DNA from: Cladocopium goreaui
Taxonomy: Eukaryota; Sar; Dinophyceae; Suessiales; Symbiodiniaceae
Direction: 5' to 3'
DNA length: 64,000 bases
Assembly: GCA_947184155.2 (NCBI GenBank)
Contig: CAMXCT020003368.1
Span: 1 to 64,000 of the forward strand
Below, in pieces: positions 7,149 through 55,614 of the stretch. How positions within the stretch are numbered: position 1 is the first letter of the stretch; the number at the start of each line of letters is the position of its first letter. The notes under the pieces are model-generated. The model made no database searches and was not told the DNA's origin. It saw nothing but the letters and a program-made list of their open reading frames with translations. Made by a program: the position numbers and the translations under genes.

Positions 7149-7594
7149 TCTCTCGCAGGATACCCACTTGGAAAGATGCGATGTTCGTAGACTCAGCTGC
7201 AGACAAGACAGTCATAGCTCCAAACCAATCACTGAATCATTTTCCATTGGAGTTATAGAACCAACGAAACAGTTACTGCGAGACACCTGAGTCAATCCAT
7301 GAGAGTCTTCGCTGCTTGGACAGAGTTTTGTACTTCTTCAACTTTGGCAGCAAAACATCAGGCAAGCTCAGTGTACCAGTGCTTTTCCTGTGAAACCCAA
7401 GAATGGAATTCCAAAACAGTAGTGTGCATGGTGAACGGAACATCTCAGGACAGCTTTGCCAAGTCTCTTTTTAGGTGGTTTCAACGAAGCTGGCTTCTTC
7501 ATAACTTTCATCACCGCCATGATCACTGCGAACCCAAAACCGCTTGTGCAGAGCAAAGGTGCTGCAACAAAGATCACCAAGTAGCCAATTCAAT

Positions 7595-15160: not shown

Positions 15161-15925
15161 CAACACAGCGTCACCGCATTGTCGCCACATTGCCACCACA
15201 TCGCCAACACATCGCCGCCACATTGCCACCACATCGCCATCACATCGCCGACACATCGCCGCCACATTGCCACCACATCGCCATCACATCGCCGACACAT
15301 CGCCGCCACATCGCCGCCACATCGCCGCCACATCGCCGCCACATCGCCGCCACATCGCCGCCACATCGCCGCCACATCGCCGCCACATCGCCGCCACATT
15401 GCCGCCACATGGCCGCCACATTGCCGCCACATTGCCGCCACATTGCCACCACATTGCCGCCACAGTGGCCGCCACATCGCCGCCGCATTGCCGCCACATT
15501 GCCGCCACATCGCCGCCACATTGCCGCCACATTGCCGCCACGTTGCCGCCACATTGCCGCCACATTGCCGCCACATTGCCGCCACCTCGCCGCCACAGCT
15601 GCCGCCACAAGTTGCGCCACATTGCCGCCACATTGCCGCCACGTTGCCGCCACATTGCCGCCACCTCGCCGCCACAGCTGCCACGGGACCTTATTTCTGC
15701 CAATAAGGTCTTGTTCTGGCCAAACAGGACCTTATTGGCAGAAATAAGGTCCTGTGGCAGCTGTGGCGGCGATGTGGCGGCAATGTGGCGGCAATGCGGC
15801 GGCGAGGTGGCGGCGATGTGGCGGCAATGTGGCGGCGATGTGGCGGCGCGATGTGGCGGCGATGTGGCGGCGATGTGGCGGCGATGTGGTGGCAATGTGG
15901 GGGCAATGTGACGACCACACGACGA
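15161..15925. repeat. 11-bp minisatellite forming a large hairpin, right arm
   Basis: Left half (15,161-15,683) is built of cgccgccacat-type units. The right half (about 15,760-15,912) is the same unit reverse-complemented (ggcggcgatgt). Between them (15,684-15,755) is a perfect ~25-bp inverted repeat starting ggaccttatttctgcc around a 16-base loop. Each stem arm is itself an inverted repeat (gaccttatt with aataaggtc). Long frames on both strands are repeat artefacts. Confidence 0.9.
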
Positions 15926-16177: not shown

Positions 16178-16445
16178 CCCCCTAATCTTCCTAGAAGCTT
16201 TGTTTTAGAGCTGGCAGCTCTAATTTGGCATTCTAGGGTCCTAGAAGCTCATTTGGGAAGCTCTAATTTAGAGCTGGCAGCTTTAAATTAGAGCTGGCAG
16301 CTCTAAATTAGAGCTTCCCAAACAGGGCTGGCAGCTCAAATTTAAGGCAGCCGCCTTAAATTTGAGCTTCCAGGATTTTTGATAAAAAAGTCACCTTAGA
16401 AGCTCTAAAATAGAGCTTCCCAAATGAGCTTCTAGAAGCCCTATT
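16178..16445. repeat. Hairpin array, agctctaaattagagct type
   Basis: A run of short palindromes: agagctggcagctct, agctctaaattagagct, and ggcagccgccttaaatttg pairing with an upstream aaatttaaggc. It begins with ctaatcttcctagaagct, which reappears reverse-complemented at the end of the array at 29,465-29,668. Confidence 0.85.
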
Positions 16446-16689: not shown

Positions 16690-18950
16690 TGGAACTTGTC
16701 TTTCTTAGCAACAGGCATCCCAAGGCCACATCCATGGCTTTTTATGGGCGTCCAAGCTTGCCGTTTGCCAGCCTTAAAACGCTCCAAACCGCTACAACCC
16801 CTCCAAGTCCACTTCCATGGCTTCTTATGGGCTTCCAGCGCAGGCAAAAGCTACCCCAAGGCCAGATCCATTGCTGTTTCTGGGCGGTCCAGCGTGCCGT
16901 TCGCCAGGCATTCGCAGCCAACGGGCATCCGAAGGCCACTTCAATGGCTTCTTCTGGGCTTCCAGCGGCTTCCAAGCTTGCCGTTTGCCAAGCCTAAAAC
17001 CCTCCAAACCTCTAAAACCCCTAAAAGGCCACTTCAATGGCTTCTTATGGGCTTCCAGCGCACGCAAAAGCCCACATCCATGGCTTTTTATGGGCGTCCA
17101 AGCTTGCCAAACCCCTAAAAGGCCACTTCAATGGCTTCTTATGGGCTTCCAGCGCAGGCAAAAGCCCACATCCATGGCTTTTTATGGGCGTCCAAGCTTG
17201 CCGTTTGCCAGGCCTAAAACGCTCCAAACCCCAAACCCCTAAAACCCCTAAAAGGCCACTTCAATGGCTTCTTATAGGCTTCCAGCGCAGGCAAAAGCCC
17301 ACATCCATGGCTTTTTATGGGCGTCCAAGCTTGCCGTGTGCCAGGCCTAGAACCCTCCATATGGGCTTCCAGCGCAGGCAAAAGCCCACATCCATCACTT
17401 TTTATGGGCGTCCAAGCTTGCCGTTTGCCAGGCCTAGAACCCTCCAAACCCCTAAAAAGCCACTTCAATGGCTTCTTATGGGCTTCCAGCGCAGGCAAAA
17501 GCCCACATCCATGGCTTTTTATGGGCGTCCAAGCTTGCCGTTTGCCAGGCCTAGAACCCTTCAAACCCGTAAAACCCCTAAAAGGCCACTTCAATGGCTT
17601 CTTATGGGCTTCCAGCGCCCACATCCATGGCTTTTTATGGGCGTCCAAGATTGCCGTTTGCCAGGCCTAAAACGCTCCAAACCCTCCAAACCCCTAAAAC
17701 CCCTAAAAGGCCACTTCAATGGCTTCTTATGGGCTTCCAGCGGCTTCCAAGCTTGCCGTTTGCCAAGCCTAAAACCCTCCAAACCCCTAAAACCCCTAAA
17801 AGGCCACTTCAATGGCTTCTTATAGGCTTCCAGCGCCCACATCCATGGCTTTTTATGGGCGTCCAAGCTTGCCGTTTGCCAGGCCTAAAACCCTCCAAAC
17901 CCTCCAAACCCCTAAAACCCCTAAAAGGCCACTTCAATGGCTTCTTATGGGCTTCCAGCGCAGGCAAAAGCCCACATCCATGGCTTTTTATGGGCGTCCA
18001 AGCTTGCCGTTTGCCAGGCCTAGAACCCTCCAAACCCCTAAAAAGCCACTTCAATGGCTTCTTATGGGCTTCCAGCGCAGGCAAAAGCCCACATCCATGG
18101 CTTTTTATGGGCGTCCAAGCTTGCCGTTTGCCAGGCCTAGAACCCTCCAAACCCCCCCTAAAAGGCCACTTCAATGGCTTCTTATGGGCTTCCAGCGCAG
18201 GCAAAAGCCCACATCCATGGCTTTTTATGGGCGTCCAAGCTTGCCGTTTGCCAGGCCTAAAACGCTCCAAACCCTCCAAACCCCTAAAACCCCTAAAAGG
18301 CCACTTCAATGGCTTCTTATAGGCTTCCAGCGCCCACATCCATGGCTTTTTATGGGCGTCCAAGCTTGCCGTTTGCCAGGCCTAAAACGCTCCAAACCCT
18401 CCAAACCCCTAAAACCCCTAAAAGGCCACTTCAATGGCTTCTTATGGGCTTCCAGCGCCCACATCCATGGCTTTTTATGGGCGTCCAAGCTTGCCGTTTG
18501 CCAGGCCTAAAACGCTCCAAACCCTCCAAACCCCTAAAACCCCTAAAAGGCCACTTCAATGGCTTCTTATGGGCTTCCAGCGTCCATGGCTTTTTATGGG
18601 CGTCCAAGCTTGCCGTTTGCCAGGCCTAGAACCCTCCAAACCCGTAAAACCCCTAAAAGGCCACTTCAATGGCTTCTTATGGGCTTCCAGCGCCCACATC
18701 CATGGCTTTTTATGGGCGTCCAAGATTGCCGTTTGCCAGGCCTAAAACGCTCCAAACCCTCGAAACCCCTAAAACCACTAAAAGGCCACTTCAATGGCTT
18801 CTTATGGGCTTCCAGCGCAGGCAAAAGCCCACATCCATGGCTTTTTATGGGCGTCCAAGCTTGCCGTTTGCGAGGGCTAAAACCCTCCAAACCCCTAAAA
18901 CCCTAAACTTTAAAACCCCTAAAAGGCCACTTCGGCGGTCCAGCGTGCCA
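16690..18950. repeat. Degenerate tandem array, ~120-bp units, with telomere-like words
   Basis: About 16 units, marked by recurrent ttttatgggcgtccaag. Each unit combines ccacatccatggc, a gccgtttgccaggcct segment, one or more cccctaaaa words and ggccacttcaatggcttctt. Unit length varies because short modules are present or absent. The cccctaaaa and ccctaaa words resemble TTTAGGG-type telomere repeat. Both strands stay open for up to 262 codons because the unit lacks stops; I do not regard these as genes. Confidence 0.9.
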
Positions 18951-22302: not shown

Positions 22303-22569
22303 ACATTGCATTCATTGTACCACGATCTGTGTTTACGCTACCTAGACTTTCAAAAACTCTACAATATTTGCACGATTGGTGCGCATGTGGGCCGTTTTGA
22401 CCTTTCCCCGCCGCTCCGCCCTGAAAAGGGGGTCGGCGGCACCAGGGCGTTAGCCCATTCTATATACATGTATTTGGCAAAGGTTGCAAAGGAACCATAT
22501 TTAAATCCAAATATATGGTTTCACATACTTTTTGATCACAACTGACAACTGCTAGCTGATTTCATCGCC

Positions 22570-23586
22570 ATGGCAAAGCTGTTGCCTGTGAAGCCTGTGG
22601 AAAGGCTGGAAAAGGACAAAGTCAAGCAGCTGGCAGCATTGATCAAAGGCTGCATACCTGATTGCAAACTTGAAGACTTCCCAGCAGATCCAGAGAAAGC
22701 CTGCAAAAGGCTGCAAACCTTTCTGTGTTTGTGGTACCCATCCACAAGCAGCAAGAAAGCAGATGAGAGGAAAGCTTTCTCAGAAGCCTGTGGAAGGCTG
22801 GAAACCCATGAGACAAAAGCGATTGTGAACAATCTGCATGAATACAAAGCTTGGCTGCTCAGAAAAAAAGAAATTTGAAGACTGGTGAAAGAACAGACCC
22901 AACCCTCATGGCCTTGTTCAATGCAATCCTGCAAAAGGATAACCAGGGAATCAATTTAAGCAGTAGCAGCAGCAGCATGAAGATGCCTGGAGAAGAAGAG
23001 CTTGAGAAAGCTGATGAAAAGCCTGTGAAAAGGCTAAGAAGCAAACAGCCTCTGAATGACAAAGCAGAAGACAAAACAGAGGTGCCAAAGCCTGCAAAGG
23101 CCATATGCTTTGCTTTTGACACCCCTGGAAGTCAAAAGTCCAAAAGCTGTGACATAGTGTCTGTTTCCAGTGTTTCCAGTGGTGGCTTTATGGCACCTGG
23201 AGAGTTTTCAGAAGAGCTACCTGAGCCTGCAAAGGCTGGAAAGGCAGGCGCAGCAAAGAAGCCTGCTGCTCATGTGGCTTGCAAAAGGCCAGCTGCTGCA
23301 AAGGGAGTAACAAAGAAGCCTGCAAAGGCTAGAAATAAAAGTTTGGGTAGTGTCAAAAAGCTTTGGTTTCATCCATGAAACCAAGGCTTCCCAGAAAGCA
23401 TACATCAATGCAAAGCCAGAGATGGCTGACAAACCATATTGTGTAGTCAATGTTTCGCTGGCAGCAGGCCAGCTGCAAGACATGGTGATGAAGAAAGTGT
23501 TTGCAAAGGCACAGGAAGAAAATATGACAAAGGCAAGCCTGGTTCACTACAAGAATGAGCTTTTGGAAGCTGGGGACAGCTCATAA
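22570..23586 (+). CDS. Palindrome-rich locus, block 1: lysine/alanine-rich hypothetical protein, frame shifts at A runs
   Basis: Three overlapping plus frames read as one protein: 22,570-22,878 (MAKLLPVKPVERLEKDKVKQ on), 22,851-23,378 and 23,350-23,586. The ATG at 22,570 has a good context (catcgccATGG). The first change falls at A7 near 22,870 (aga aaa aaa g), which fits a -1 slip or one missing A. The second falls at A5 near 23,357 and needs the opposite shift. The middle is Ser-rich, then KPAKA/KRPAAAKG-rich, like a linker-histone tail. The last part (KPYCVVNVSLAAGQLQDMVM) looks globular. No known domain recognised. At least nine AGCCTG-n-AAGGCT palindromes lie inside. Same strand as the next three blocks. 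Confidence 0.5.
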
Positions 23587-24144
23587 ATTGCAAAGCCTGT
23601 GGGAGGCTGTCAAAGTCAAGCTGGAAACAGCTGTTGAAGCTGGGGACAGCTCTGTGTGAAGCTTGGGAAATGCTGTTTTTTTTGGGTTAAACACCAAACA
23701 GCTTGCAAAAGGCTACCAAGACCTATCAGCTTTCAAGTTTTGAAAAATGTGGCAGCTTGCTGCAGCAGCATCTGTAGAAATGTGAAGGGGGTCAGCTGGC
23801 AGTGCAGAAGTATGCAACTCTGTTGCATGGGCTCAAAACAGAACTTGTGCACTTGAGCACAAAAAGCAAAGCAACTAGGCAGATGGCACATATACAAACA
23901 AACAGTGTAGCAGAACCACAAAATAGAAAAAAAAGCACACACCACTACAAACAGAAACCGTGAGGAACATGTGCATATAGACACACACACACAGAGACAC
24001 AAAAGCACGCACACACACACACACTTCCTTTCAAACCTGACTCTGTAGCTTCTGCCTCTGCACCTTGCCCACACACAAGCTGTGGAGCCACTAGTGCCAT
24101 GGGAAGCCAAATGGCTTTTATGTTGCTAGCTCTTCTGCTAGTGA
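23587..24144. other. Spacer with CA-rich microsatellite
   Basis: No clear coding frame. CA-rich stretches at about 23,975-24,025. A few palindromes of the surrounding set (near 23,597 and 23,701) continue here. Confidence 0.45.
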
Positions 24145-25519
24145 GTGACTCAGCCAGGAATGGCTTGGAAGCCAGCAATGGCTTTGCTGGCCTTTTCAAC
24201 AGAGCCAGTGATGGCTACACGGTTTGCTTGGTGGCATCTGAGGACCTGGTCTGGGCAGTACTATTTTGTACATCCAGATGGATGGTTTGAAGAGCTGGAG
24301 CCCTGGGAGCTGGTGGCAATAGAATTTGCATTTGCCACAGAGCCAGCGATGGCTGTATATGTGGATGCTGTGTCTCATATGATGACACCAAGCCAGGAAT
24401 GGCCCCCTGTTTGGAATGCTGACCTCCAGATATGGCAGACCAGCAGGGAGGAGCCAGGAAGGGGCTCTACTGTTGCCCAGCCACTGGACCTCGACAGGCT
24501 GTGGCATTCCCAACAACAGCCTGCAACAGGCTCTGCTTGGAACCAGCCTGCTGCTTGGAACCAGCCTGGAACAGGCTCTGCTTGGAACCAGCATGCTGCT
24601 TGGAACCAGCCTGGAACAGGCTCTGCTTGGAACCACCAGCCTGGAAGAGGCTATGCAAGGTCAAGTTGAGCCTGGGCAAGGCTATTGGGAGCCTGGCCAA
24701 GGCTCTTGGGGCAGCTCCAGTGGCCCTTCAAGCAGCTCCACAGGGTGCGCAGGTGGAAGGGAACCTGAGCAGCCTTGGAGGTGGAGGGCTGAGGAAGGCT
24801 GGTACCAGCCCTATGTTGGTGATAAAAAGCCAAGGCCTGACTTTGAGGCTCCAAGGTTTGGGACCAGGGGCTTTGGTTCATCCTGCAGAAGGATGGAAAG
24901 AAGGTGGTTGCACAGGAGGGGTGAAGAAACACCTGACCACCTGAAGCCTGTGAAGGCTAAAATGACCAAGGAGGTCAAAACAAAGATGAAGGAGCTCATC
25001 AAGCAAATGCGTGACATTGATGAAGCTTCATCAGAATCAGAGCTGCCTGAGGTCCCAAAGCCTGAGAAGGCTCCAGATACAGACACAGAAAGCAGCAGTT
25101 CTTTTGATTTTAGGGGAGGCGAGGGGAATGCTAAAGCCAGAGATGGCTCAAGAAAAAGGGTGTGGAAGGGAACCCCCAGCAATGCTGCAAAGCTTTCCTT
25201 AGTTCCTGAAGAGCCAGCGAAGGCTGTAGAGCCAAAAGTTGAGGAGGAGGAAGATGAAGATGAGGACATGGGGGATGGGAAGGAGGAGCCTGCAGAGGCT
25301 GGTAAAAAAAGAAAAAGAAAAAGAGAAGAAAAAGCAAAAAAAATAAAGAGAAAGATGAGTCTGAGGATCCTGGGGATGGCCCTGATGGCCCACCAGGAGG
25401 CCCAGGAGGAGCCAGTGATGGCTCAAGAGGCTCTGGCCTGGGGCCTCCCTTGGTGGCTGCAACTTGAAAAAGTTAAAGCAGCCAAAAAAAGCCTGCAAAG
25501 GCTAGGAGTGAAAGCTTGA
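24145..25519 (+). CDS. Palindrome-rich locus, block 2: Trp-containing N-part and acidic/basic tail
   Basis: The first frame (24,145-24,669) opens without ATG, so it is probably an exon or lies behind an upstream start. It contains SGQYYFVHPDGWFEELEPWE and repeats rich in AWNQPGTGS built by palindromes. Coding then seems to continue one frame over from about 24,655 (YWEPGQGSWGSSSGPSSSS; basic KMTKEVKTKMKELIKQMRD; acidic EEEEDEDEDMGDG; KKRKRKREEKAKK). Near 25,336 an A8 run precedes a better-looking alternative frame (DESEDPGDGPDGPPGGPGG) that stops near 25,468, so another one-base break is likely. No catalytic domain recognised. Possible roles are only guesses; the tail is typical of nuclear proteins. 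Confidence 0.45.
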
Positions 25520-25812
25520 GAAAGGCTTAGGAGTAGCCTGGGAAGGCTGAAGGTAGGCAGCTTGGAAGAGGCTCCCAGCTGCAAACACTGCAGCTCCTGG
25601 CACAGACCAGTGAGAGTTTTTGAAAAACAGAGCTGCTGCGAAGGGGAAGGGGGTGGGCTGGTTGAAGACCACAAAAAAAAATAGGTGCAGTAAGTAAGGG
25701 ATAGGGAGTACCCACAAAAGCCGTTTGGATGGGGAAGGTTTCCTTTTTGGTTGCTGAGTTTTGCAGAAGCCTGCAAAGGCTTTAAAAAAAAACAAATGTG
25801 GTTTTCAGACAA

Positions 25813-25906
25813 AAAAGTCTGAATTTCAGACTTTCAGACTTTTTACTTTATATTTAAGTTATTAATTAAAACTATGAAAATCTGAAAGTCTGAAATTCAG
25901 ACTTTT
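25813..25906. repeat. Inverted repeat with ~30-base arms
   Basis: aaaagtctgaatttcagact (25,813 on) is matched by the reverse complement ending ctgaaattcagactttt near 25,906; the spacer is AT-rich, about 33 bases. It lies in the gap between coding blocks 2 and 3. Confidence 0.85.
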
Positions 25907-25995
25907 GGTTTTTTTCCTAGAAAATGAAGCTGATCACCAAAAATTCTGCAGCCCTTTGGCACAAACTAGAAAGGGTTTTAGGGATCTAGTCAGAC

Positions 25996-27195
25996 ATGAA
26001 GCGGCCTGCAGCAATGATAAAACAGGAGAAGCCAACTCCAAAAAAAAAGGCAAGAGAACAGGAGCCTGCAGAGGCTGAGTTGGGAACTGAGCCTGGAGAG
26101 GCTGAGCCTGGAGAGGCTGAGCCTGGAGAGGCTGACAGCCAGCAAGTGGCTGATCAGGAGCCTGCAAAGGCTGCACCTGCAAGTGGCTCCAAGCCTGAAA
26201 AGGCTTTGCCAGCAATGGCCACAGAGAAAGCCAAAGCTAAGGCAAAGGCCTTGGCAGCTCCTAGCAAAGCCCAATGGAATGATGTGCATTACACAATGAA
26301 GAAGCTTGAGAAAGCTGGCAAGATGGATTTGCCTGAGAAATGGAAGAAAGCTTGCTCAGGAGGTCACCAAAGCAAGCGTGAGTTTTACTACCACACATTT
26401 CTCCTAGATCCAGAGGCCAGCAAAAAAGAAGTTCATAAGAGTAGCCTGGAAAGGCTTTCGGTGGAATCAACCAAGTTGAAAGGTTGGTTCACCAAATGGC
26501 AGCTTGGGGAAATGCAAGGTGCAGTCGCCACCCACCCCATGTTTGAACAGCTCTGCACAGAAGCCTGCAAAGGCTTACCTGAAAGAGATCATGAGAATGA
26601 AGCCTGGGCAAGGCTGGGTGTGAAACAATATTACTTCGAACATTTTGAAGCTGAGAAGGAAAGGCATGCGAATGAAAGTACAACTGCGGCCAAGCAAACA
26701 GTGGAAGTCTCTGACAGGCAAGATTTCCAAAAGGCAGAGAAGGCCCTCATGGCTGAGCCAGACAATGGCCAAGTGGTTTTTGGAAAGAAAAGCCACAAGG
26801 CTGAGGCCAGTGCAGAGGAAGAAAAGCCTGAGGAGGCTTACAAAAAAGCATACCAAAGCCTGAGTAAGGCTGTGAAGGCTTTCTCAAGTGCAGTTGACAA
26901 GCTGCAGTTGCTGAAGACAAGCTTGGCAAACAAGCAGAAGGAGCAGCCCAATGCACAAGTGGCTGCCAGTGTAGGTGAAATGGAACACTTGCAAAAGCAA
27001 CATGAAGACTTGAAAAGTCAGTGGGTCACCAGGCTGGCTGCAGTTGCCAGCACATTGCCTGCAGATGCAGCCAGTGATGGCTCAGAAACTGAGAAGCTTC
27101 AGCAATGGAAGCAAGAAATTGAAGAGCAAAACAAAAGCCTGGGTAAGGCTTTGAACCCACACAGATTGTGGGCCAAGAATGCAGGTTTGATTTAA
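25996..27195 (+). CDS. Palindrome-rich locus, block 3: 399-residue protein
   Basis: An intact frame from ATG (MKRPAAMIKQEKPTPKKK). Residues 1-90 are a low-complexity EPGEA/EPAKA/AKAKA region built largely from palindromes read in the P-A-K-A phase. Residues 90-230 look globular (WNDVHYTMKKLEKAGKMDLP, KREFYYHTFLLDPEASKKEV, LKGWFTKWQLGEMQG, GLPERDHENEAWARLGVKQY). Residues 270-385 are helical, probably coiled coil (VKAFSSAVDKLQLLKTSLAN, EMEHLQKQHEDLKSQW). From memory it resembles an uncharacterised family that is abundant in Symbiodiniaceae; this is not verified. It stops with TAA at 27,195, 210 bases before block 4. Confidence 0.65.
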   Translation: MKRPAAMIKQEKPTPKKKAREQEPAEAELGTEPGEAEPGEAEPGEADSQQVADQEPAKAAPASGSKPEKALPAMATEKAKAKAKALAAPSKAQWNDVHYTMKKLEKAGKMDLPEKWKKACSGGHQSKREFYYHTFLLDPEASKKEVHKSSLERLSVESTKLKGWFTKWQLGEMQGAVATHPMFEQLCTEACKGLPERDHENEAWARLGVKQYYFEHFEAEKERHANESTTAAKQTVEVSDRQDFQKAEKALMAEPDNGQVVFGKKSHKAEASAEEEKPEEAYKKAYQSLSKAVKAFSSAVDKLQLLKTSLANKQKEQPNAQVAASVGEMEHLQKQHEDLKSQWVTRLAAVASTLPADAASDGSETEKLQQWKQEIEEQNKSLGKALNPHRLWAKNAGLI

Positions 27196-27405
27196 ACCAT
27201 GTGGCCTGCACAAGTTTTGGGGAAGAATTGAAGCCTGGAAAGGCTGCTAAAAGTTTTGCACATAGTAGAAGCTTGGAAAAGGCTCGACCGAACCTGCAAA
27301 GACAGGTACATAGCAACTTGTGCCCCTGCTGGAAAAAAAAGCTGCTGCTGCTGCTGCTGCTGCTTTGCTAGGTAACTGTGTGCACATGTTCAGCAGGTCA
27401 AAGGT
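27196..27405. other. Short gap with palindromes and a (CTG)n run
   Basis: There is no open frame. It contains palindromes near 27,231 and 27,272 and a CTG repeat at about 27,340-27,362. Confidence 0.5.
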
Positions 27406-29340
27406 TTGGTGGCACTGTCAGGTGAGCTCCAAATGGCTTTTTTCTTCGCAGCCATTTTAACTTCAAGCATGAAGCTCTGGTTTGTTCTAAAAGTTTTTTT
27501 CTGCATGTGCTGGTGCACGTGTGGTGCCTGCAAAGGCAAAAGGAAAAGGGAGGAGCCTGAGGAAAGGCTTTTGTTGCAACCCCCCAGGCCCAAAAGCCAA
27601 AAACAAAGAGATGCAGAAGAAGATTTTGGAAAGGAATTAAGAAAATTGTTTGAAAAGAACAAAGTGTCTGCTCAGGATAGCTACAGGATCTTGGAAAAAG
27701 CGCAAAAGTGTGGCTTAGAATTTTCAAATCCTGTGAAGGATTCAAGCTGGAAGGCGTCCAAAGGATCAGAGCCTGAAAAGGCTAACAGCAATGCAGCTAG
27801 GACCTTGAAGAGGTTTATGACAAGGAAAAAGAATTGGAGCGACTTTTACTGGGCCCAGATCCCACTATACAATCCAAAGACAAAAGCTGTTAGCCAGGAA
27901 TGGCTGCCCTTTCTGCTGCCACATGAATTTTTGTCAGATTATTTTTACCAAGAAGGGGCTGTGGAAGAGGCAATGCCTGCAGCAGGCACCTACAGGAGCC
28001 AGAGATTGGCTGAAGTTTGCAAAGCTTGGGAAAGCTCTGTGATGGTTCCACTGGGGCTTCATGGAGATGGTGTTCCCATCCAAGGCAGGATGAACCACAG
28101 CACCTTGGATTTCTTGAGCATAAACCTTCCAGCCAGCGAGTGCTTCCAAGCTCAAAGAATTCCAATGTGTTGCTTGGAGGCAAGGCACAATGCTGGGGAA
28201 GAAACATGCTTGGAAATTTGCAAAGTCATAGCATGGAGCTTGAGAAAGCTAGGGGAAGGAATTTATCCAACAGAAAGGCATGATGGGGAACCATTTCATG
28301 CAAAAAAAAATGCAGAAAGACGCAAACTGGCTGGGAAGCCAATGCCTGCAAAGGCATGTCTCTTGGAGATGTGATCTGATTGGGATTGGAACTGCAAATG
28401 GTATGGAACACCAGCCAACAATCAAAAGTGTGGCTGTTGTTGGCTTTGTTCTGCCAAACCTGACAACTGGAAGGCATTAAGTGTTGAAGAAAGAAAAGGC
28501 ATGAGCCTGCAACAGGCTGATTGGTTGAGCAGCTTGGAAAACAGGGGAAAGCAAACCAATCCTCTTTTTCAGCTGCCTGGTGTGACCAATTGGTCACTTT
28601 TTCCTGATTGGATGCATGTGGCAGATGAAGGTTGTGCAGCCTTGGCAGCTGGCCAAATCCTTCATGAGCTTCTACCTTCATATGCTGCACCCAATCAGGA
28701 AGCTCGGGTAGGGCTGCTTTGGGACCATATCCAAAGCATCTATGAAGCCAGGGACTGGCCAGCAGAACAGAGGTTGCCCAAGTTAACCTTAAAAGACATA
28801 AAGAAGCCTGGGAAGGCTGCTGAGCTAGATGTCAAAGCAGCTCAATGCAGACATTTTGTGCCAGTGGTGGCAATCCTCACTGAGGAAAAGGGTTTCAAAA
28901 TTGGAAGCCCAAGACAAAAGGCAATCCACAATGTTGCAAGATATTGTGCAAAGATGTATGCTGCCTTGGAAGCTGGAGACAGCATGGCCATAGCCAGCAA
29001 TGGCCATAAATTTGTTAGCCAATACCTGGCTCTAGAAGAGCATGCTGTAACTTGGGACCCTGATGACACCAAAACTTGGAGAGCAAGACCCAAGTTCCAC
29101 TTGCTGCAGCACATTCTGGATGAAGCCTGCAAAGGCTTGCACCCTAAAGATGTATGGAACTATCGAGATGAAACATTTGGGTATACAATGCAGCAGCTAT
29201 GGTTCAGAAGAGGTGGCAAAACCAAGAGCCCCAAAGTCGAAAGTGAATCAGTTTTGCTAAGATGGGCAAACAGCACAGAGACCTGGAGCTTGCAAAAGGC
29301 TATGGAAGCAAAGCTTGAAAAAGCTGATATGGAAGCCTGA
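27406..29340 (+). pseudogene. Palindrome-rich locus, block 4: DDE transposase-like gene with one in-frame TGA
   Basis: Two frames, 27,406-28,374 and 28,501-29,340, are in the same phase. The 42 codons between them are open, so the only break is TGA at 28,372-28,374. The first ~40 residues are probably intron or leader; convincing protein starts around KGKRKREEPEERLL. The middle shows VPLGLHGDGVPIQG. After the TGA comes a Cys-rich finger (KCGCCWLCSAK), then FPDWMHVADEGCAALAAGQI and RPKFHLLQHILDEACKG, then DETFGYTMQQLWFRRGG. The D-MH-D and late D/E pattern recalls Tnp2/CACTA-like and other RNase-H-fold DDE transposases; this is inference. The same pattern, with introns and without palindromes, recurs at 55,891-58,305. 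Palindromes lie within conserved segments (EACKG, ASNGH). Confidence 0.6.
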
Positions 29341-29464
29341 GAGAGGCTTAATGTATCAGAGCCAATGGGCTTCAAGACTTTCATGAATGCCAGAAAAAGA
29401 AGCTGCTGCTGTGTGCAACATGGTGAACATATGTAATACATGACCACTGTTAAAATCTAAAGAA
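29341..29464. other. Spacer after block 4
   Basis: Short non-coding stretch ending at the hairpin array. Confidence 0.4.
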
Positions 29465-29668
29465 AACATTGCCTGGAGAAGCTCTAAATTAGAGCTTCTA
29501 GAAGCTCTAATCTAGAGCTTCTAGAGAGGATTTATCATTGCTCTAGAAGCTCTAAATTAGAGCTCCTAGTGATTTTTGCTAGAAGCTCGAATTTAGCGCT
29601 GCCAGCGCTAAATTTGAGCTTCTCATTTTTGAGCTTCTAGAAAAGAGCTTCTAGGAAGATTAGGGGCA
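29465..29668. repeat. Hairpin array, second copy, inverted
   Basis: Repeated agagcttctagaagctct, agctctaaattagagct and gcgctgccagcgctaaattt-type palindromes, ending gcttctaggaagattaggg. That end is the reverse complement of the start of the 16,178 array. Confidence 0.85.
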
Positions 29669-39359: not shown

Positions 39360-42300
39360 GCAATGGCGGAAGTGTCTCAACTAACACAACTCATCCCACA
39401 CAAACTCATCTCACACAAACTCATCTCACACAACTCATCTCACACACAAACTCATCTCACACATCTCACTCATCTCACTGACTCATCTCAACACACTCAA
39501 CTCAACTCAACTCATCTCACACAAACTCATCTCACACAACTCATCTCCAGAATCATCTCACACAAACTCAGCTCACACAACTCATCTCACACAACTCATC
39601 TCACACAAACTCATCTCACACCTCACTCATCTCTCACACAACTCATCTCACACAAATCATCTCACACAAACTCAGCTCACACAACTCATCTCACACAACT
39701 CATCTCACACAAACTCATCTCACACATCAACCCACTCAACTCACCTGACTCAACTCATTTCACACACCTCAACCCACTCAACTCATCTCACACAAATCAT
39801 CTCACACCAACTCAGCTCACAGGAACTCATCTCACACAAATCATCTCACACCTCAACCCACTCAACTCATCTCAAACAACTCATCTCACACATACTCATC
39901 TCACACCTCAACCCACTCAACTCACCTGACTCAACTCATTTCACACACCTCAACCCACTCAACTCATCTCACACAAATCATCTCACACCAACTCAGCTCA
40001 CAGGAACTCATTTCACACAACTCATCTCACACCTCAACCCACCAACTCATCTCAAACAACTCATCTCACACATACTCATCTCACACCTCAACCCACTCAA
40101 CTCATCTGACTCAACTCATCTCACACACCTCAACCCACTCAACTCATCTCACACAACTCATCTCACACAAACTCATCTCACACAACTCATCTCACACAAA
40201 TCATCTCACACAACTCATCTCACACAAACTCATCTCACACAACTCATCTCACACAAATCATCTCACACCTCATCTCACACAAATCATCTCACACCTCATC
40301 TCACACCACTCAACTCATCTCACACACAACTCATCTCACACAACTCATCTCACACAACTCATCTCACACATACTCATCTCACACAACTCATCCCACACAA
40401 ACTCATCTCACACAAACTCATCTCACACAACTCATCTCACACAAACTCATCTCACACATCTCAACCCACTCAACTCATCTGACTCAACTCATCTCACACA
40501 CCTCAACCGACTCAACTCATCTCACACAACTCATCTCACACAAACTCATCTCACACAACTCATCTCACACAAATCATCTCACACAAACTCAGCTCACACA
40601 ACTCATCTCACACAACTCATCTCACACAAACTCATCTCACACCTCAACCCACTCAACTCACCTGACTCAACTCATTTCACACATCTCAACCCACTCAACT
40701 CATCTCACACAAATCATCTCACACCAACTCAGCTCACAGGAACTCATTTCACACAACTCATCTCACACATACTCATCTCACACCCCAACCCACTCAACTC
40801 ATCTGACTCAACTCATCTCACACACCTCAACCCACTTAACTCATCTCACACAACTCATCTCCCACAAACTCAGCTCACACAACTCATCTCACACATACTC
40901 ATCTCACACCTCAACCCACTCAACTCATCTGACTCAACTCATCTCACACATCTCAACCCACTCAACTCATCTGACTCAACTCATCTCACACAAACTCATC
41001 TCACACAACTCATCTCACACAAATCATCTCACACAAATCATCTCACACAAACTCAGCTCACACAACTCATCTCACACAACTCATCTCACACCTCAACCCA
41101 CTCAACTCATCTCACACAACTCATCTCACACAACTCATCTCACACAACTCATCTCACACATACTCATCTCACACAACTCATCTCACACATACTCATCTCA
41201 CACAAACTCAGCTCACACAACTCATCTCACACAACTCATCTCACACAAACTCATCTCACACATCAACCCACTCAACTCACCTGACTCAACTCATTTCACA
41301 CACCTCAACCCACTCAACTCATCTCACACAAATCATCTCACACCAACTCATCTCACAGGAACTCATCTCACACAAACCATCTCACACCTCAACCCACTCA
41401 ACTCATCTCAAACAACTCATCTCACACATACTCATCTCACACCTCAACCCACTCAACTCACCTGACTCAACTCATTTCACACCCCTCAACCCACTCAACT
41501 CATCTCACACAAATCATCTCACACCAACTCAGCTCACAGGAACTCATTTCACACAACTCATCTCACACCTCAACCCACTCAACTCATCTCAAACAACTCA
41601 TCTCACACATACTCATCTCACACCTCAACCCACTCAACTCATCTGACTCAACTCATCTCACACACTTCAACCCACACAACTCATCTCACACAACTCATCT
41701 CCCACAAACTCAGCTCACACAACTCATCTCACACATATCTCATCTCACTCATCTCACACCTCAACCCACTCAACCCATCACACACAACTCATCACACAAA
41801 CATCTCACACACAACCTCACCCACTCAATCTCACACAACTCATCTCACAACTCATCTCACACATACTCATCTCACACAAACATCTCACACAACTCATCAC
41901 ACAAATCATCTCAACATCAACACTCTCACACAACTCATCTCACACAACTCATCTCACACAACTCATCTCATCTCACACCTCAACCCACTCAACTCAGCTC
42001 ACACAACTGACTCAACTCATTTCACACACCTCAACCCACTCAACTCATCTCACACAACTCATCTCACACAAACTCAGCTCACACAACTCATCTCACACAA
42101 ATCATCTCACACAAACTCAGCTCACACAACTCATCTCACACAAATCATCTCACACAAACTCAGCTCACACAAATCTCACACAACTCATCTCACACAAACT
42201 CATCTCACACCTCAACCCACTCAACTCACCTGACTCAACTCATTTCACACACCTCAACCCACTCAACTCATCTCACACAAATCATCTCACACCAACTCAG

Positions 42301-45300
42301 CTCACAGGAACTCATTTCACACAACTCATCTCACACATACTCATCTCACACCTCAACCCACTCAACTCATCTGACTCAACTCATCTCACACACCTCAACC
42401 CACACAACTCATCTCACACAACTCATCTCCCACAAACTCAGCTCACACAACTCATCTCACACATACTCATCTCACACCTCAACCCACTCAACTCATCTGA
42501 CTCAACTCATCTCACACATCAACCCACTCAACTCATCTCACACAACTCATCTCACACAACTCATCTCACACATACTCATCTCACACAACTCATCTCACAC
42601 ATCATCTCATCTCACACAAACTCAGCTCACACAACTCATCTCACACAACTCATCTCACACAAACTCATCTCACACATCAACCCACTCAACTCACCTGACT
42701 CAACTCATTTCACACACCTCAACCCACTCAACTCATCTCACACAAATCATCTCACACCAACTCATCTCACAGGAACTCATCTCACACAAACCATCTCACA
42801 CCTCAACCCACTCAACTCATCTCAAACAACTCATCTCACACATGCTCATCTCACACCTCAACCCACTCAACTCACCTGACTCAACTCATTTCACACACCT
42901 CAACCCACTCAACTCACCTCACACAAATCATCTCACACCAACTCAGCTCACAGGAACTCATTTCACACAACTCATCTCACACCTCAACCCACTCAACTCA
43001 TCTCAAACAACTCATCTCACACATACTCATCTCACACCTCAACCCACTCAACTCATCTGACTCAACTCATCTCACACAAATCATCTCACACCAACTCAGC
43101 TCACAGGAACTCATCTCCCACAAACTCATCTCACACAACTCATCTCACACATACTCATCTCACACCTCTACCCACTCAACTCATCTGACTCAACTCATCT
43201 CACACACCTCAACCCACTCAACTCATCTCACACAACTCATCTCACACAAACTCATCTCACACAACTCATCTCACACAAATCATCTCACACAAACTCATCT
43301 CACACAAACTCATCTCACACAACTCATCTCACACAAATCATCTCACACCTCAACCCACTCAACTCATCTCACACAACTCATCTCACACAACTCATCTCAC
43401 ACAACTCATCTCACACATACTCATCTCACACAACTCATCTCACACAAATCATCTCACACAAACTCAGCTCACACAACTCATCTCACACAACTCATCTCAT
43501 ACATACTCATCTCACACCTCTACCCACCCAACTCATCTGACTCAACTCATCTCACACACCTCAACCCACTCAACTCATCTCACACAACTCATCTCACACA
43601 AACTCATCTCACACAACTCATCTCACACAACTCATCTCACACAAATCATCTCACACAAACTCACCTCACACAACTCATCTCACACAAATCATCTCACACA
43701 AATCATCTCACACCTCAACCCACTCAACTCATCTCACACAACTCATCTCACACAACTCATCTCACACAACTCATCTCACACAACTCATCTCACACAAACT
43801 CATCTCACACAACTCATCTCACACCAACTCAGCTCACAGGAACTCATTTCACACAACTCATCTCACACATACTCATCTCACACAACTCATCTCACACAAA
43901 CTCAGCTCACACAAACTCATCTCACACAACTCATCTCACACAAATCATCTCACACAAACTCACCTCACACAAACTCATCTCACACAACTCATCTCACACA
44001 TACTCATCTCACACCTCAACCCACTCAACTCATCTCACACAAATCATCTCACACAAACTCACAGCTCCCACATACTCATCTCACACAACTCACTCACCAA
44101 CCTCAATCTCACATCACAACAACTCATCTCACACAAATCAATCTCACACAAACTCACCTCACACAACTCACCTCACACACTCATCTTCACACAAAGCAGC
44201 TCACACCTCAACCCACTTCACTCATCTCAACGCAACTCATCTCACACCAACTCATCTCACACAACTCATCTCACCATATCATCTCAAACACTCATCTCAC
44301 ACAACAATCTCAACTCACACAACCTCAGCTCACATAACTCTCTCACCACTCAATCCTCAAAAAACCCCACAAACCAAAAAAAGGAAAAAACCAAACTCGC
44401 TCACTCGCACACACCTCAACCCACTCAACTCACCTGACTCAACTCATTTCACACACCTCAACCCACTCAACTCATCTCACACAAATCATCTCACACCAAC
44501 TCATCTCACAGGAACTCATCTCACACAAATCATCTCACACCTCAACCCACTCAACTCATCTCAAACAACTCATCTCACACATACTCATCTCACACCTCAA
44601 CCCACTCAACTCACCTGACTCAACTCATTTCACACACCTCAACTCACTCAACTCATCTCACACAAATCATCTCACACCAACTCAGCTCACAGGAACTCAT
44701 TTCACACAACTCATCTCACACCTCAACCCACTCAACTCATCTCAAACAACTCATCTCACACATACTCATCTCACACCTCAACCCACTCAACTCATCTGAC
44801 TCAACTCATCTCACACACTTCAACCCACACAACTCATCTCACACAAATCATCTCCCACAAACTCAGCTCACACAACTCATCTCACACATACTCATCTCAC
44901 ACCTCTACCCACTCAACTCATCTGACTCAACTCATCTCACACACCTCAACCCACTCAACTCATCTCACACAACTCATCTCACACAAACTCATCTCACACA
45001 ACTCATCTCACACAAACTCATCTCACACAACTCATCTCACACAAACTCATCTCACACAACTCATCTCACACAAATCATCTCACACCTCAACCCACTCAAC
45101 TCATCTCACACAACTCATCTCACACAACTCATCTCACACAACTCATCTCACACATACTCATCTCACACAACTCATCCCACACAAACTCATCTCACACAAA
45201 CTCACCTCACACAACTCTCACACAAATCATCTCACACCAACTCAGCTCACAGGAACTCATTTCACACAACTCATCTCACACATACTCATCTCACACCTCA

Positions 45301-47045
45301 ACCCACTCAACTCATCTCACACAACTCATCTCACACAAACTCATCTCACACAACTCATCTCACACAAATCATCTCACACAAACTCATCTCACCCAACTCA
45401 TCTCACACAACTCATCTCACACAAACTCATCTCACACCTCAACCCACTCAACTCACCTGACTCAACTCATTTCACACACCTCAACCCACTCAACTCATCT
45501 CACACAAATCATCTCACACCAACTCAGCTCACAGGAACTCATTTCACACAACTCATCTCACACATACTCATCTCACACCTCAACCCAATCAACTCATCTG
45601 ACTCAACTCATCTCACACACCTCAACCCACACAACTCATCTCACACAACTCATCTCCCACAAACTCAGCTCACACAACTCATCTCACACATACTCATCTC
45701 ACACCTCAACCCACTCAAATCATCTGACTCAACTCATCTCACACACCTCAACCCACTCAACTCATCTCACACAACTCATCTCACACAAACTCATCTCACA
45801 CAACTCATCTCACACAAACTCACCTCACACAAACTCACCTCACACAAACTCATCTCACACAACTCATCTCACACAAACTCATCTCACACCTCAACCCACT
45901 CAACTCATCTCACACAACTCATCTCACACAACTCATCTCACACAACTCATCTCACACAACTCATCTCACACAAACTCATCTCACACAACTCATCTCACAC
46001 AAATCATCTCACACCAACTCAGCTCACAGGAACTCATTTCACACAACTCATCTCACACATACTCATCTCACACCTCAACCCAATCAACTCATCTGACTCA
46101 ACTCATCTCACACACCTCAACCCACACAACTCATCTCACACAACTCATCTCCCACAAACTCAGCTCACACAACTCATCTCACACATACTCATCTCACACC
46201 TCAACCCACTCAACTCATCTGACTCAACTCATCTCACACACCTCAACCCACTCAACTCATCTCACATAACTCATCTCACACAAACTCATCTCACACAACT
46301 CATCTCACACAAATCATCTCACACAAACTCACCTCACACAAACTCATCTCACACAACTCATCTCACACAAATTATCTCACACCTCAACCCACTCAACTCA
46401 TCTCACACAACTCATCTCACACAACTCATCTCACACATACTCATCTCACACAACTCATCTCACACAAATCATCTCACACAAACTCAGCTCACACAACTCA
46501 TCTCACACAACTCATCTCACACAAACTCAGCTCACACAAACTCATCTCACACAACTCATCTCACACAAATCATCTCACACAAACTCACCTCACACAAACT
46601 CATCTCACACAACTCATCTCACACAAATTATCTCACACCTCAACCCACTCAACTCATCTCACACAAATCATCTCACACAAACTCAGCTCACACAACTCAT
46701 CTCACACAACTCATCTCACTCAATTCTCACCCAACTCATCACACACAGTTCAACTCATTCAACTCATCTTACCCAACCCATCTCACTCAACTCACCTGAC
46801 TCAAGTCAGCGCACACAGTTCAACCATCTTAACAACTCAACTCACTCAAGTCATCTCACGCAACTCATCTCACTCCACTCACCTCACACCACTCAATTCA
46901 CTCAACTCATTTCACTCAACTCACCTCACACAACTCATCTCACTCAACTCATTTCACACAACGAAACCCACACAACTCATCTCGCTCCACTCAAATCACT
47001 TAACTGATCTCATTCAACTCATCCCGCACTCACTCCACTCCCACA
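39360..47045. repeat. 7.7-kb satellite of ctcatctcacacaa-type units
   Basis: Short units (actcatctcacacaa and variants such as ctcaacccactcaa, ctcatctgactcaa, aaatcatctcacacc, actcagctcacaggaa) fill the region without a gene. The plus strand is almost free of G. The marker caggaactcat recurs in pairs about 178-181 bp apart (39,823/40,001; 41,356/41,537; 42,773/42,951; 44,510/44,691), and the pairs recur every ~1.4-1.7 kb, showing higher-order units. The array is degenerate at about 44,100-44,410 and after 46,720. Confidence 0.97.
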
Positions 47046-52775: not shown

Positions 52776-53320
52776 GTCCCCTTAAGCCACAAAAAACCGC
52801 TCAATGAACAAACCGCAGTCAAATTTTGGTGCGACCCTCAAAAGTTGGCTTGATCAACGGCAAGTCAGCAATTGTCCTGCAACGTCTTTCTACTTACACC
52901 GCATTTTCTGAGAATGAAACTGCAAAATGCATCCCACAAAGGTTTCACGGAGCACCCGTGTCTCACATGTGCTGATATCAGATGTTCCGCTTATCAGGAC
53001 TCGAAAAATACACAACAAAAACCTCTGCAGCCATTTCCAAATCTGCTTTCGCTCCGAAAACAGTTCGTATCATCGAAGGAAGTTTAGAAGCGAAGCTTCC
53101 GACCATATTGACAGATGGAAAAGCACAGCCAGGAAGAAGCTCCGACAGGGAGACAGTCAGAAGTGAGAAGATAAGAGATGGAGAAAGTCAGAAGAGAGAA
53201 GATGCAGGTGCGCGAAAAGGTAGGAAAGTCGCCGAGCACTGTGTGTTTTTTCCAATGATTTGTGGCTCGGGAGGGTCGAAAAGTAGGTTTGCTAAAGCGG
53301 CGGGTGCGAAGACATCTTCC
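52776..53320. other. Upstream region of the MULE gene
   Basis: Minus strand 52,781-52,788 reads GGCTTAAG after a T run, five bases before the ATG, one mismatch from the spliced-leader end GGCTCAAG. No gene is seen up to the 288-bp array. Confidence 0.35.
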
Positions 53321-55614
53321 GGGAATCCGACTGTTTGAGTAAGCGGGAGACAGAACCCGAGGACGACCTCACCAAAGACAAGAGAGAAGTCAGGCGTAGA
53401 GGTAAGGCGTATGTAGCATCAAGTTCGTGGACAAGGGCAAGTGAAGAAGTGAAGAGACCAAAGCGAACTTCCGCGTAGTGAGTCATAGGCAAGAACAAGG
53501 AGAAGGATGCGGGACGCGAAGCCTATCACAAAAGAACTCGCTTTTTGGAGGATTTAGGCTGCAAACCCTGGATTTCTGAGTCCTTTTCATTCGACACAGG
53601 ATGTTTCCGGGAATCCGACTGTTTGAGTAAGCGGGAGACAGAACCCGAGGACGACCTCACCAAAGACAAGAGAGAAGTCAGGCGTAGAGGTAAGGCGTAT
53701 GTAGCATCAAGTTCGTGGACAAGGGCAAGTGAAGAAGTGAAGAGACCAAAGCGAACTTCCGCGTAGTGAGTCATAGGCAAGAACAAGGAGAAGGATGCGG
53801 GACGCGAAGCCTATCACAAAAGAACTCGCTTTTTGGAGGATTTAGGCTGCAAACCCTGGATTTCTGAGTCCTTTTCATTCGACACAGGATGTTTCCGGGA
53901 ATCCGACTGTTTGAGTAAGCGGGAGACAGAACCCGAGGACGACCTCACCAAAGACAAGAGAGAAGTCAGGCGTAGAGGTAAGGCGTATGTAGCATCAAGT
54001 TCGTGGACAAGGGCAAGTGAAGAAATGAAGAGACCAAAGCGAACTTCCGCGTAGTGAGTCATAGGAAAGAACAAGGAGAAGGATGCGGGACGCGAAGCCT
54101 ATCACAAAAGAACTCGCTTTTTGGAGGATTTAGGCTGCAAACCCTGGATTTCTGAGTCCTTTTCATTCGACACAGGATGTTTCCGGGAATCCGACTGTTT
54201 GAGTAAGCGGGAGACAGAACCCGAGGACGACCTCACCAAAGACAAGAGAGAAGTCAGGCGTAGAGGTAAGGCGTATGTAGCATCAAGTTCGTGGACAAGG
54301 GCAAGTGAAGAAGTGAAGAGACCAAAGCGAACTTCCGCGTAGTGAGTCATAGGCAAGAACAAGGAGAAGGATGCGGGACGCGAAGCCTATCACAAAAGAA
54401 CTCGCTTTTTGGAGGATTTAGGCTGCAAACCCTGGATTTCTGAGTCCTTTTCATTCGACACAGGATGTTTCCGGGAATCCGACTGTTTGAGTAAGCGGGA
54501 GACAGAACCCGAGGACGACCTCACCAAAGACAAGAGAGAAGTCAGGCGTAGAGGTAAGGCGTATGTAGCATCAAGTTCGTGGACAAGGGCAAGTGAAGAA
54601 GTGAAGAGACCAAAGCGAACTTCCGCGTAGTGAGTCATAGGCAAGAACAAGGAGAAGGATGCGGGACGCGAAGCCTATCACAAAAGAACTCGCTTTTTGG
54701 AGGATTTAGGCTGCAAACCCTGGATTTCTGAGTCCTTTTCATTCGACACAGGATGTTTCCGGGAATCCGACTGTTTGAGTAAGCGGGAGACAGAACCCGA
54801 GGACGACCTCACCAAAGACAAGAGAGAAGTCAGGCGTAGAGGTAAGGCGTATGTAGCATCAAGTTCGTGGACAAGGGCAAGTGAAGAAGTGAAGAGACCA
54901 AAGCGAACTTCCGCGTAGTGAGTCATAGGCAAGAACAAGGAGAAGGATGCGGGACGCGAAGCCTATCACAAAAGAACTCGCTTTTTGGAGGATTTAGGCT
55001 GCAAACCCTGGATTTCTGAGTCCTTTTCATTCGACACAGGATGTTTCCGGGAATCCGACTGTTTGAGTAAGCGGGAGACAGAACCCGAGGACGACCTCAC
55101 CAAAGACAAGAGAGAAGTCAGGCGTAGAGGTAAGGCGTATGTAGCATCAAGTTCGTGGACAAGGGCAAGTGAAGAAGTGAAGAGACCAAAGCGAACTTCC
55201 GCGTAGTGAGTCATAGGCAAGAACAAGGAGAAGGATGCGGGACGCGAAGCCTATCACAAAAGAACTCGCTTTTTGGAGGATTTAGGCTGCAAACCCTGGA
55301 TTTCTGAGTCCTTTTCATTCGACACAGGATGTTTCCGGGAATCCGACTGTTTGAGTAAGCGGGAGACAGAACCCGAGGACGACCTCACCAAAGACAAGAG
55401 AGAAGTCAGGCGTAGAGGTAAGGCGTATGTAGCATCAAGTTCGTGGACAAGGGCAAGTGAAGAAGTGAAGAGACCAAAGCGAACTTCCGCGTAGTGAGTC
55501 ATAGGCAAGAACAAGGAGAAGGATGCGGGACGCGAAGCCTATCACAAAAGAACTCGCTTTTTGGAGGATTTAGGCTGCAAACCCTGGATTTCTGAGTCCT
55601 TTTCATTCGACACA
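53321..55614. repeat. Eight tandem 288-bp units, nearly identical
   Basis: Units start at 53,321, 53,609, 53,897, 54,185, 54,473, 54,761, 55,049 and 55,337; the last is about 10 bases short. Only the third unit shows clear differences (near 54,025 and 54,066). As 288 is a multiple of three, each unit gives the same 73-residue plus frame and 86-residue minus frame, each closed by stops. No rRNA, spliced-leader or other RNA gene was recognised in the unit. Confidence 0.97.

Follow-up and report, generated by a model that had tools for sequence, protein, structure and literature searches.

Short RNA hairpins with a GNRA-like loop (N, any base; R, purine) on the coding strand occur as boxB sites in phages lambda and P22, where N peptides read them; boxB sites are few and lie in the leader RNA of the phage. 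The pentaloop of P22 boxB is GACAA, as given in sections of PMC12550061. The packaging signals of single-stranded RNA viruses (MS2, parechovirus and satellite tobacco necrosis virus, STNV) are likewise many short, degenerate stem-loops with a common loop motif, dispersed on the RNA and read by the coat proteins of the viruses. Palindromes inside open reading frames (ORFs) are familiar from Rickettsia palindromic elements, which are read in different frames. Passages of PMC6649704 describe these elements as inserted mobile units whose repeat identity fades with time and also report that Nematomorpha mitochondria tolerate inverted repeats within protein genes, perfect repeats of the mitochondrial DNA whose arms reach 142 bp. 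Here, we describe an array of stem-loops on the sense strand of a DNA transposon of Cladocopium goreaui, which lies in positions 1 to 64,000 of contig CAMXCT020003368.1 (forward strand; this whole 64,000-nucleotide stretch is referred to as the window).

The usual view of cut-and-paste transposons is that of DNA parasites, with RNA as a mere messenger. To our knowledge, no RAG1/Transib/CACTA-type element carries an RNA hairpin array, and among the papers listed in literature searches, no title or abstract opening describes a GNRA hairpin array in a (cut-and-paste) transposon. The window array resembles boxB in its short stems and its GNRA-like loops on the coding strand, and the GACAA loop occurs three times in the related element C5882. 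In contrast to boxB, the hairpins number about 60 and line the ORFs of a transposon in a eukaryote, and an N-like peptide was not identified. The array differs from viral packaging signals in that the carrier is not an RNA genome but a DNA transposon of the terminal-inverted-repeat type, and no capsid gene was recognised. Like the Nematomorpha repeats, the hairpins lie in protein genes, but they have 5-bp stems, a set loop and a transposon as carrier.

We defined a hairpin as a 5-bp Watson-Crick stem closing a GNRR loop or a loop of 5-6 nt that starts with GNR. By this rule, the element bears 67 hairpins on its plus strand, spanning 22592 to 29348, and 3 on the minus strand. The 67 comprise 37 GNRA and 7 GNRG hairpins, 14 with pentaloops, 3 with hexaloops and 6 in which the stem extends to 6 bp. 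All GNRA tetraloop hairpins of the window element are on the plus strand (37 plus, 0 minus). Pentaloops compatible with the GNRA fold, sorted by the insertion classes given in sections of PMC12550061, show the same preference (14/26 plus vs 1/26 minus; in C5882, 17/24 vs 1/24). Four stems, AGCCT, AGCCA, AGCTT and AGCTG, account for 32 of the 37 GNRA hairpins, and the overall design is a stem that is mostly AGC-Y-N at a density of about one per 100 nt. The initial annotation of this eukaryotic locus, which had listed about 60 palindromes at 22592..29347, thus holds for their number and position (the last end is one base off). The loop is GNRA on the coding strand only. A DNA palindrome would prefer neither loop strand; the hairpins are not symmetric DNA palindromes.

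The array is not reproduced by shuffled sequences. Dinucleotide shuffles of the whole element gave a mean of 0.53 GNRA hairpins (maximum 4, 200 shuffles) against the 37 observed. Shuffles of seven ORF blocks that keep protein and codon usage gave a mean of 1.35 (maximum 5, 500 shuffles) against 29 observed (28 distinct, since one hairpin sits in two overlapping blocks). The remaining 56.7 kb of the window hold 7 GNRA hairpins (5 plus, 2 minus), five stretches around single motif matches (20 kb) hold 3 plus and 4 minus, and 1 was counted in 66.6 kb (N excluded) drawn from eight arbitrary places in this genome, a small part of its 1.17 Gb.

The hairpins are spread across four ORFs, which correspond to the four coding blocks recognised earlier, and the spacers between them; 9 of the 37 GNRA hairpins fall in sequence not covered by the ORF blocks and the rest inside them, matching the earlier description of palindromes in exons and gaps. 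The frame tolerance that had been noted is also real, as all three codon phases are occupied by the 29 in-ORF GNRA hairpins (17, 7 and 5). Selection on the repeated peptides themselves (KPAKA, EPEKA, SLQRL, ACKG), for example as histone-H1-like tails, would suit the predominance of phase 1 readings such as KPAKA (17/29). However, the three phases yield unrelated peptides, 9 of the 37 GNRA hairpins are not in ORF blocks at all, and the loss of hairpins in protein-keeping shuffles excludes peptide selection as the sole cause; we give this explanation hardly any probability.

Wherever strands were compared (the window copy, C1049, C5882, C191 and C291), the hairpins favour the strand that codes. 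In the two full elements examined, C1049 and C5882, the GNRA hairpins reach from about 970-1020 to about 7290-7300, sparing the first ~970-1020 and the last ~340-540 bases of the element, whereas hairpins with five or six loop nucleotides are present in the window from 22592 onwards, close to where ORF1 starts. Local folding predicts a mean closing-pair probability of 0.63 on the sense strand and of 0.41 when these sites are folded from the opposite strand. Neither Rfam at gathering scores nor a tRNA scan gave a match.

Nucleotide conservation in the hairpins exceeds what the protein accounts for. Between subfamilies that are about 70% identical, third codon positions are identical at 81/98 sites (83%) in hairpins vs 666/1298 (51%) elsewhere (Fisher P = 7e-10, with sites treated as independent and some window sites compared twice); conservation of the sites in relatives is not simply that of the protein. 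Over 44 site comparisons, which stem from three element pairs with each alignment read in both directions and are not independent, the loop G is identical in 42/44, N in 28/44, R in 21/44 and A in 39/44. Twelve closer contigs, themselves not independent and compared after dropping matches of <150 columns or <85%, differ in the loop at 1/230 cells for G, 0/226 for A, 2/226 for R and 7/231 for N, and in the stems at 43/2288 vs 1007/40942 in the background.

C5882 carries 36 GNRA hairpins on the plus and 0 on the minus strand (0.77 in shuffles), and the deleted C5980 element 5 and 0 (0.22 in shuffles). With one GU pair tolerated, the window element and C5882 (65-71% identity) share 10 sites, 9 being confined to the window and 4 to C5882, while 2 sites are shared with C5980, 4 are window-only and 2 C5980-only. 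Loop switches at shared sites stay within GNRA (GTGA/GCAA, GAGA/GAAA, GCAA/GTGA), and one site has its outer pair replaced in both arms (AGCCA-GTGA-TGGCT vs TGCCA-GAGA-TGGCA). The 44 site comparisons cover 220 stem pairs, of which 187 are identical, 6 stay paired by two-sided change (one as GU), 4 become GU by one change, 17 are broken (15 one-sided, 2 two-sided) and 6 face gaps.

Counted from the alignment rows, 16 of 19 sites unshared between subfamilies align without a gap inside the 14-nt hairpin, so most hairpins arise or vanish by substitution. This bears on the earlier comparison with Rickettsia palindromic elements, that is, on mobile palindromes inserted into ORFs. Frame tolerance, repetition and the multiplication of some hairpins as local tandem arrays would speak for such units. 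However, the window hairpins are 14-16 nt long without a longer common unit, change mostly by substitution and vary in their loop letters while the one-strand GNRA rule holds. Dispersal through unrelated genes, which would mark elements of the Rickettsia kind, was not seen either: the arbitrary stretches, a small part of the genome, are nearly devoid of such hairpins, and two of three further clusters belong to the same transposon. We thus consider insertion of mobile palindromes very improbable.

A genome search with AGCCTGNRAAGGCT returned 737 places (100 listed). From the listed places, we examined three hairpin clusters, C191, C291 and C236, leaving out others such as C224. C191 (18 plus, 0 minus GNRA hairpins, flanking a run of N on either side) and C291 (7 plus, 0 minus) are distant relatives of the same transposon that were reached by the hairpin pattern alone and have little alignable DNA. 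Compared with homologous proteins, they show about 30% identity over most of the length of ORF1, 39-51% in ORF3 and 57-67% in a transposase fragment. An ORF1 fragment in C3480 lacks the array, its 9.5 kb holding 1 GNRA hairpin on the plus and 2 on the minus strand, another in C935 (locus L029) has 2 plus and 2 minus in a 3.3-kb locus, and locus L033 has no GNRA hairpins.

Peptides of the hairpin-encoded types are also far more frequent in homologous proteins from other assemblies than in shuffled ones (ORF1 119 vs 2.4, ORF3 82 vs 3.6, transposase 30 vs 1.0), and at least one occurs in 30/38 ORF1, 26/29 ORF3 and 22/36 transposase homologues. These counts were read from proteins and not from the DNA of the other assemblies, and they are inflated by shared ancestry, close relatives being included. 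On this indirect basis, the hairpin feature probably spans several species.

The genome-wide motif count called for earlier could thus be made, with a sole control that is not composition-matched. The ratios of pattern to reversed pattern (2577 vs 616; 737 vs 29; 231 vs 4) were not used as statistics because the control contains CpG; AGCCTANRGAGGCT was designed as a loop-matched counterpart pattern for such a control. Single AGCCAGNRATGGCT places are many in the genome and may be due to chance.

Together, the preference for one strand, the loop rule and the conserved third codon positions make a role of the hairpins in the sense RNA of the element the best reading, and we hold it with considerable confidence. 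Of the options raised by the initial annotation, folding in the mRNA is accordingly the one that these sequence patterns favour. Since the stem letters are restricted and the hairpins numerous and boxB-like, we lean, if only somewhat, towards docking sites: an RNA-binding protein would bind repeatedly along the array and coat the element's own transcripts. The element itself may encode such a protein, conserved basic stretches being present in its ORF1 and ORF3, or the host may supply it, and the coat might mark, protect or export the multi-ORF RNA or aid its translation. More tentatively, and with doubt, one of the element's own proteins might read the about 60 boxB-like hairpins and wrap the RNA as a ribonucleoprotein, a self-recognition like that of RNA viruses (cis-preference, protection, packaging). 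Alternatively, the hairpins could serve RNA architecture, with GNRA loops docking into receptors or compacting and stiffening a long transcript and so shielding it from silencing or decay. Sections of PMC12550061 state that GNRA loops frequently form long-range RNA contacts, and the evidence at the RNA level (shuffles, strand, third positions) fits this explanation equally well. The stem letters, with four stems in 32 of 37 GNRA hairpins, are more restricted than architecture alone would require, and we rate this explanation as unlikely.

Several observations weigh against a role in RNA. The evidence comes from sequence, and transcription, folding and binding of the element RNA are predictions; the local pairing probability is <0.25 for 12/37 hairpins. 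One-sided breaks make up 15/27 of the changed stem pairs, which fits turnover and is weak as covariation. The 737 places found genome-wide include an unrelated repeat bearing a lone hairpin, and the C236 cluster (4 plus, 2 minus) has mixed strands and is unrelated to the transposon. A known RNA-binding domain was not recognised in ORF1, ORF3 or the transposase, nor in ORF2, which was scanned by Pfam alone. In eight partial copies (columns with at least 4 copies), stem columns are variable at a rate close to background (13/207 vs 180/3834 columns, P = 0.31), while the loop G and A are invariant (0/41, P = 0.26). A role is therefore unsupported in the partial copies, a pattern that agrees with a role restricted to coding copies.

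DNA, too, can form a GNRA-like loop, according to sections of PMC12550061, which leaves room for single-stranded DNA hairpins on the non-template strand that would serve transposition or replication. The carrier is a DNA transposon, and the strand bias would match one exposed strand. However, GNRA hairpins are absent from the element ends, the expected place of transposase action, the array tracks the ORF region, and the partial copies show no detectable stem constraint; we regard this possibility as improbable. The hairpin-templated repair considered earlier, a mutational by-product that perfects quasi-palindromes, would explain why perfect stems are commoner than chance. It predicts neither a GNRA loop on one strand nor the conservation of the loop G and A, and the stems are not kept perfect in the partial copies, which leaves it a very slim chance.

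If the hairpins act in RNA, a transposon family bears a coding cost, across three reading frames and four ORFs, to keep dozens of stem-loops, and the array makes it possible to test whether a DNA element recognises itself at the RNA level. Repeated peptides such as KPAKA, SLQRL and ASDG would then be shadows of RNA structure and a trap for annotators. A link to N1-methyladenosine (m1A) in dinoflagellate mRNA was dropped because its NNCA context, as described in parts of PMC11549093, fits GCAA loops alone.

The locus holds one copy of a RAG1/Transib/CACTA-like element, a cut-and-paste DNA transposon that has terminal inverted repeats and four ORFs; this identity and the coding-strand GNRA loop rule are absent from the initial annotation. 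The transposase has a DDE fold of the RAG1/Transib kind. In Pfam, the only library searched for the CACTA assignment, neither eight window stretches nor four transposase homologues gave a match at cut-off, to the CACTA superfamily or otherwise. From RAG1/Transib/CACTA-type DDE transposons, the window element differs by its CCCTAA termini, its four ORFs and the RNA hairpin array. Near-full copies are C1049 (98%) and C5430 (99%), and further partial copies exist; the copy number is a lower bound, because the search scored 40 of 1041 candidates. Other copies end in the terminal inverted repeats CCCTAATCTTCCTAGAAGCT ... AGCTTCTAGGAAGATTAGGG. The window copy retains the right one only and, relative to the full element, is ~360-430 bp short on the left. 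Target-site duplications of 2 bp flank 4 of 5 copies read at both ends (AG, TA, GG, AA), C1049 being without one.

The first 60-76 bases of the left flank of the window copy (22400-22476) match about 20 other places, so another repeat occupies the position of the missing left end. At 16259-16315, AGCTCTAAATTAGAGCT palindromes resemble the subterminal repeats of the transposon and are possibly a remnant end. Between ORF2 and ORF3, an imperfect inverted repeat GTCTGAA...TTCAGAC (25813-25906) is matched in other copies too.

In C1049, ORF1 is a single stop-to-stop frame of 347 codons, and one frame of 416 codons in C5882 was assigned to ORF2 by position. ORF4 has an in-frame TGA at 28372-28374 in the window and is broken at another codon in C1049; in C5882 it is one frame of 576 codons. 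No known domain was recognised in the conserved basic stretches of the ORF1 and ORF3 consensus sequences, and the ORF1 and ORF3 alignments had no Pfam match at cut-off among the matches listed. A PDB sequence search gave only weak matches for ORF3 (best E = 0.009, a kinetochore protein) and none for ORF1. The structure model of the ORF3 homologue P0043 predicts a disordered N-terminus followed by folded parts and long helices; a structure search with this model, ORF3 being the only one of ORF1-ORF3 modelled, yielded helical-bundle matches only and no recognised capsid. Six peptide patterns found no contig match in IMG/VR.

Table 1. Features of the transposon copy in the window. Hairpins follow the rule given in the text and are written as the 5' stem arm with the loop in brackets.
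Feature	Position	Strand	Remarks
DNA transposon copy	22461..29665	+	near-full and partial copies elsewhere; right flanks differ between copies
Right terminal inverted repeat	29646..29665	+	pairs with CCCTAATCTTCCTAGAAGCT at left end of other copies
Subterminal AGCTCTAAATTAGAGCTTC palindromes	29477..29623	.	this segment free of GNRA hairpins; other copies have similar palindromes at their left end
ORF1 region	22546..23586	+	overlapping frames 22546-22878, 22842-23378, 23311-23586
ORF2 region	24145..25519	+	several overlapping frames
ORF3	25996..27195	+	399 codons
ORF4, DDE transposase of RAG1/Transib fold	27376..29340	+	stop to stop
AGCCT[GTGGAA]	22592..22607	+	
AGCCT[GCAAA]	22698..22712	+	
AGCCT[GTGGA]	22785..22799	+	
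ATCCT[GCAAA]	22926..22940	+	
AGCTT[GAGA]	22999..23012	+	
AGCCT[GTGAAA]	23020..23035	+	
AGCCT[GCAA]	23224..23237	+	
AGCCT[GCAA]	23317..23330	+	
AGCCA[GAGA]	23414..23427	+	
AGCTG[GGGA]	23568..23581	+	
AGCCT[GTGGG]	23594..23608	+	
AGCTG[GAAA]	23619..23632	+	
AGCTG[GGGA]	23638..23651	+	
AGCCA[GGAA]	24152..24165	+	
AGCCA[GCAA]	24170..24183	+	
AGCCA[GTGA]	24203..24216	+	
AGCCA[GCGA]	24341..24354	+	
AGCCT[GCAAC]	24518..24532	+	6-bp extended stem
AGCCT[GGAAC]	24563..24577	+	6-bp extended stem
AGCCT[GGAAC]	24608..24622	+	6-bp extended stem
AGCCT[GGAAG]	24638..24652	+	
AGCCT[GGGCA]	24669..24683	+	
ATCCT[GCAGA]	24880..24894	+	
AGCCT[GTGA]	24945..24958	+	
AGCCT[GAGA]	25059..25072	+	
AGCCA[GAGA]	25135..25148	+	
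AGCCT[GCAG]	25287..25300	+	
AGCCA[GTGA]	25410..25423	+	
AACTT[GAAA]	25461..25474	+	
AGCCT[GCAA]	25490..25503	+	
AGCCT[GGGA]	25535..25548	+	
TTGCA[GAAGCC]	25761..25776	+	6-bp extended stem; overlaps hairpin 25768..25781, probably chance
AGCCT[GCAA]	25768..25781	+	
AGCCT[GCAG]	26063..26076	+	
AGCCT[GGAG], three in tandem	26090..26133	+	period 15 nt
AGCCA[GCAAG]	26137..26151	+	
AGCCT[GCAA]	26159..26172	+	
AGCCT[GAAA]	26192..26205	+	retained in C5882
AGCTT[GAGA]	26303..26316	+	GAAA in C5882
AGCCT[GGAA]	26443..26456	+	retained in C5882
AGCCT[GCAA]	26562..26575	+	GTGA in C5882
AGCCT[GGGCA]	26601..26615	+	
AGCCT[GAGG]	26825..26838	+	GAAA in C5882
AGCCT[GAGTA]	26857..26871	+	
GCTTG[GCAAA]	26921..26935	+	
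AGCCA[GTGA]	27069..27082	+	TGCCA[GAGA]TGGCA in C5882, outer pair exchanged on both sides
AGCCT[GGGTA]	27136..27150	+	
AGCCT[GGAA]	27232..27245	+	
TGCCT[GCAA]	27525..27538	+	
AGCCT[GAGGAA]	27554..27569	+	
ATCCT[GTGA]	27728..27741	+	GCAA in C5882
AGCCT[GAAA]	27770..27783	+	GCAA in C5882
AGCCA[GGAA]	27892..27905	+	
TGCCT[GCAGC]	27974..27988	+	6-bp extended stem
AGCCA[GAGAT]	27997..28011	+	
AGCTT[GGGA]	28023..28036	+	
AGCTT[GAGA]	28237..28250	+	GAAA in C5882
TGGCT[GGGA]	28328..28341	+	
TGCCT[GCAA]	28343..28356	+	retained in C5882 and C5980
AGCCT[GCAAC]	28504..28518	+	6-bp extended stem
AGCCT[GGGA]	28805..28818	+	
TGCCA[GTGG]	28859..28872	+	
AGCCT[GCAA]	29124..29137	+	retained in C5882; GTGA in C5980
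AGCTT[GAAA]	29312..29325	+	
AGCCT[GAGAG]	29334..29348	+	

The unrelated genome repeat that inflates the motif counts consists of AGCCTGGAAAGGCT followed by TTTCCCCGA on either strand and was found twice in locus L034 and once each in L037 and L038. In G000:C289:246441-248989, five AGCCTGAGAAGGCT sites at a spacing of about 633 bases probably represent a tandem repeat. The window itself contains further repeats: two neighbouring 11-bp tandem arrays, CATTGCCGCCA and TGTGGCGGCGA, at 15177-15910; a complex tandem array with AAACCC-type pieces and several nested periods at 16967-18907; a 7.6-kb CTCATCTCACACAA satellite at 39376-47023, whose plus strand is nearly free of G (GC skew about -0.94); and a tandem repeat of 288 bp at 53317-55614, with 8 copies that are 99% alike.

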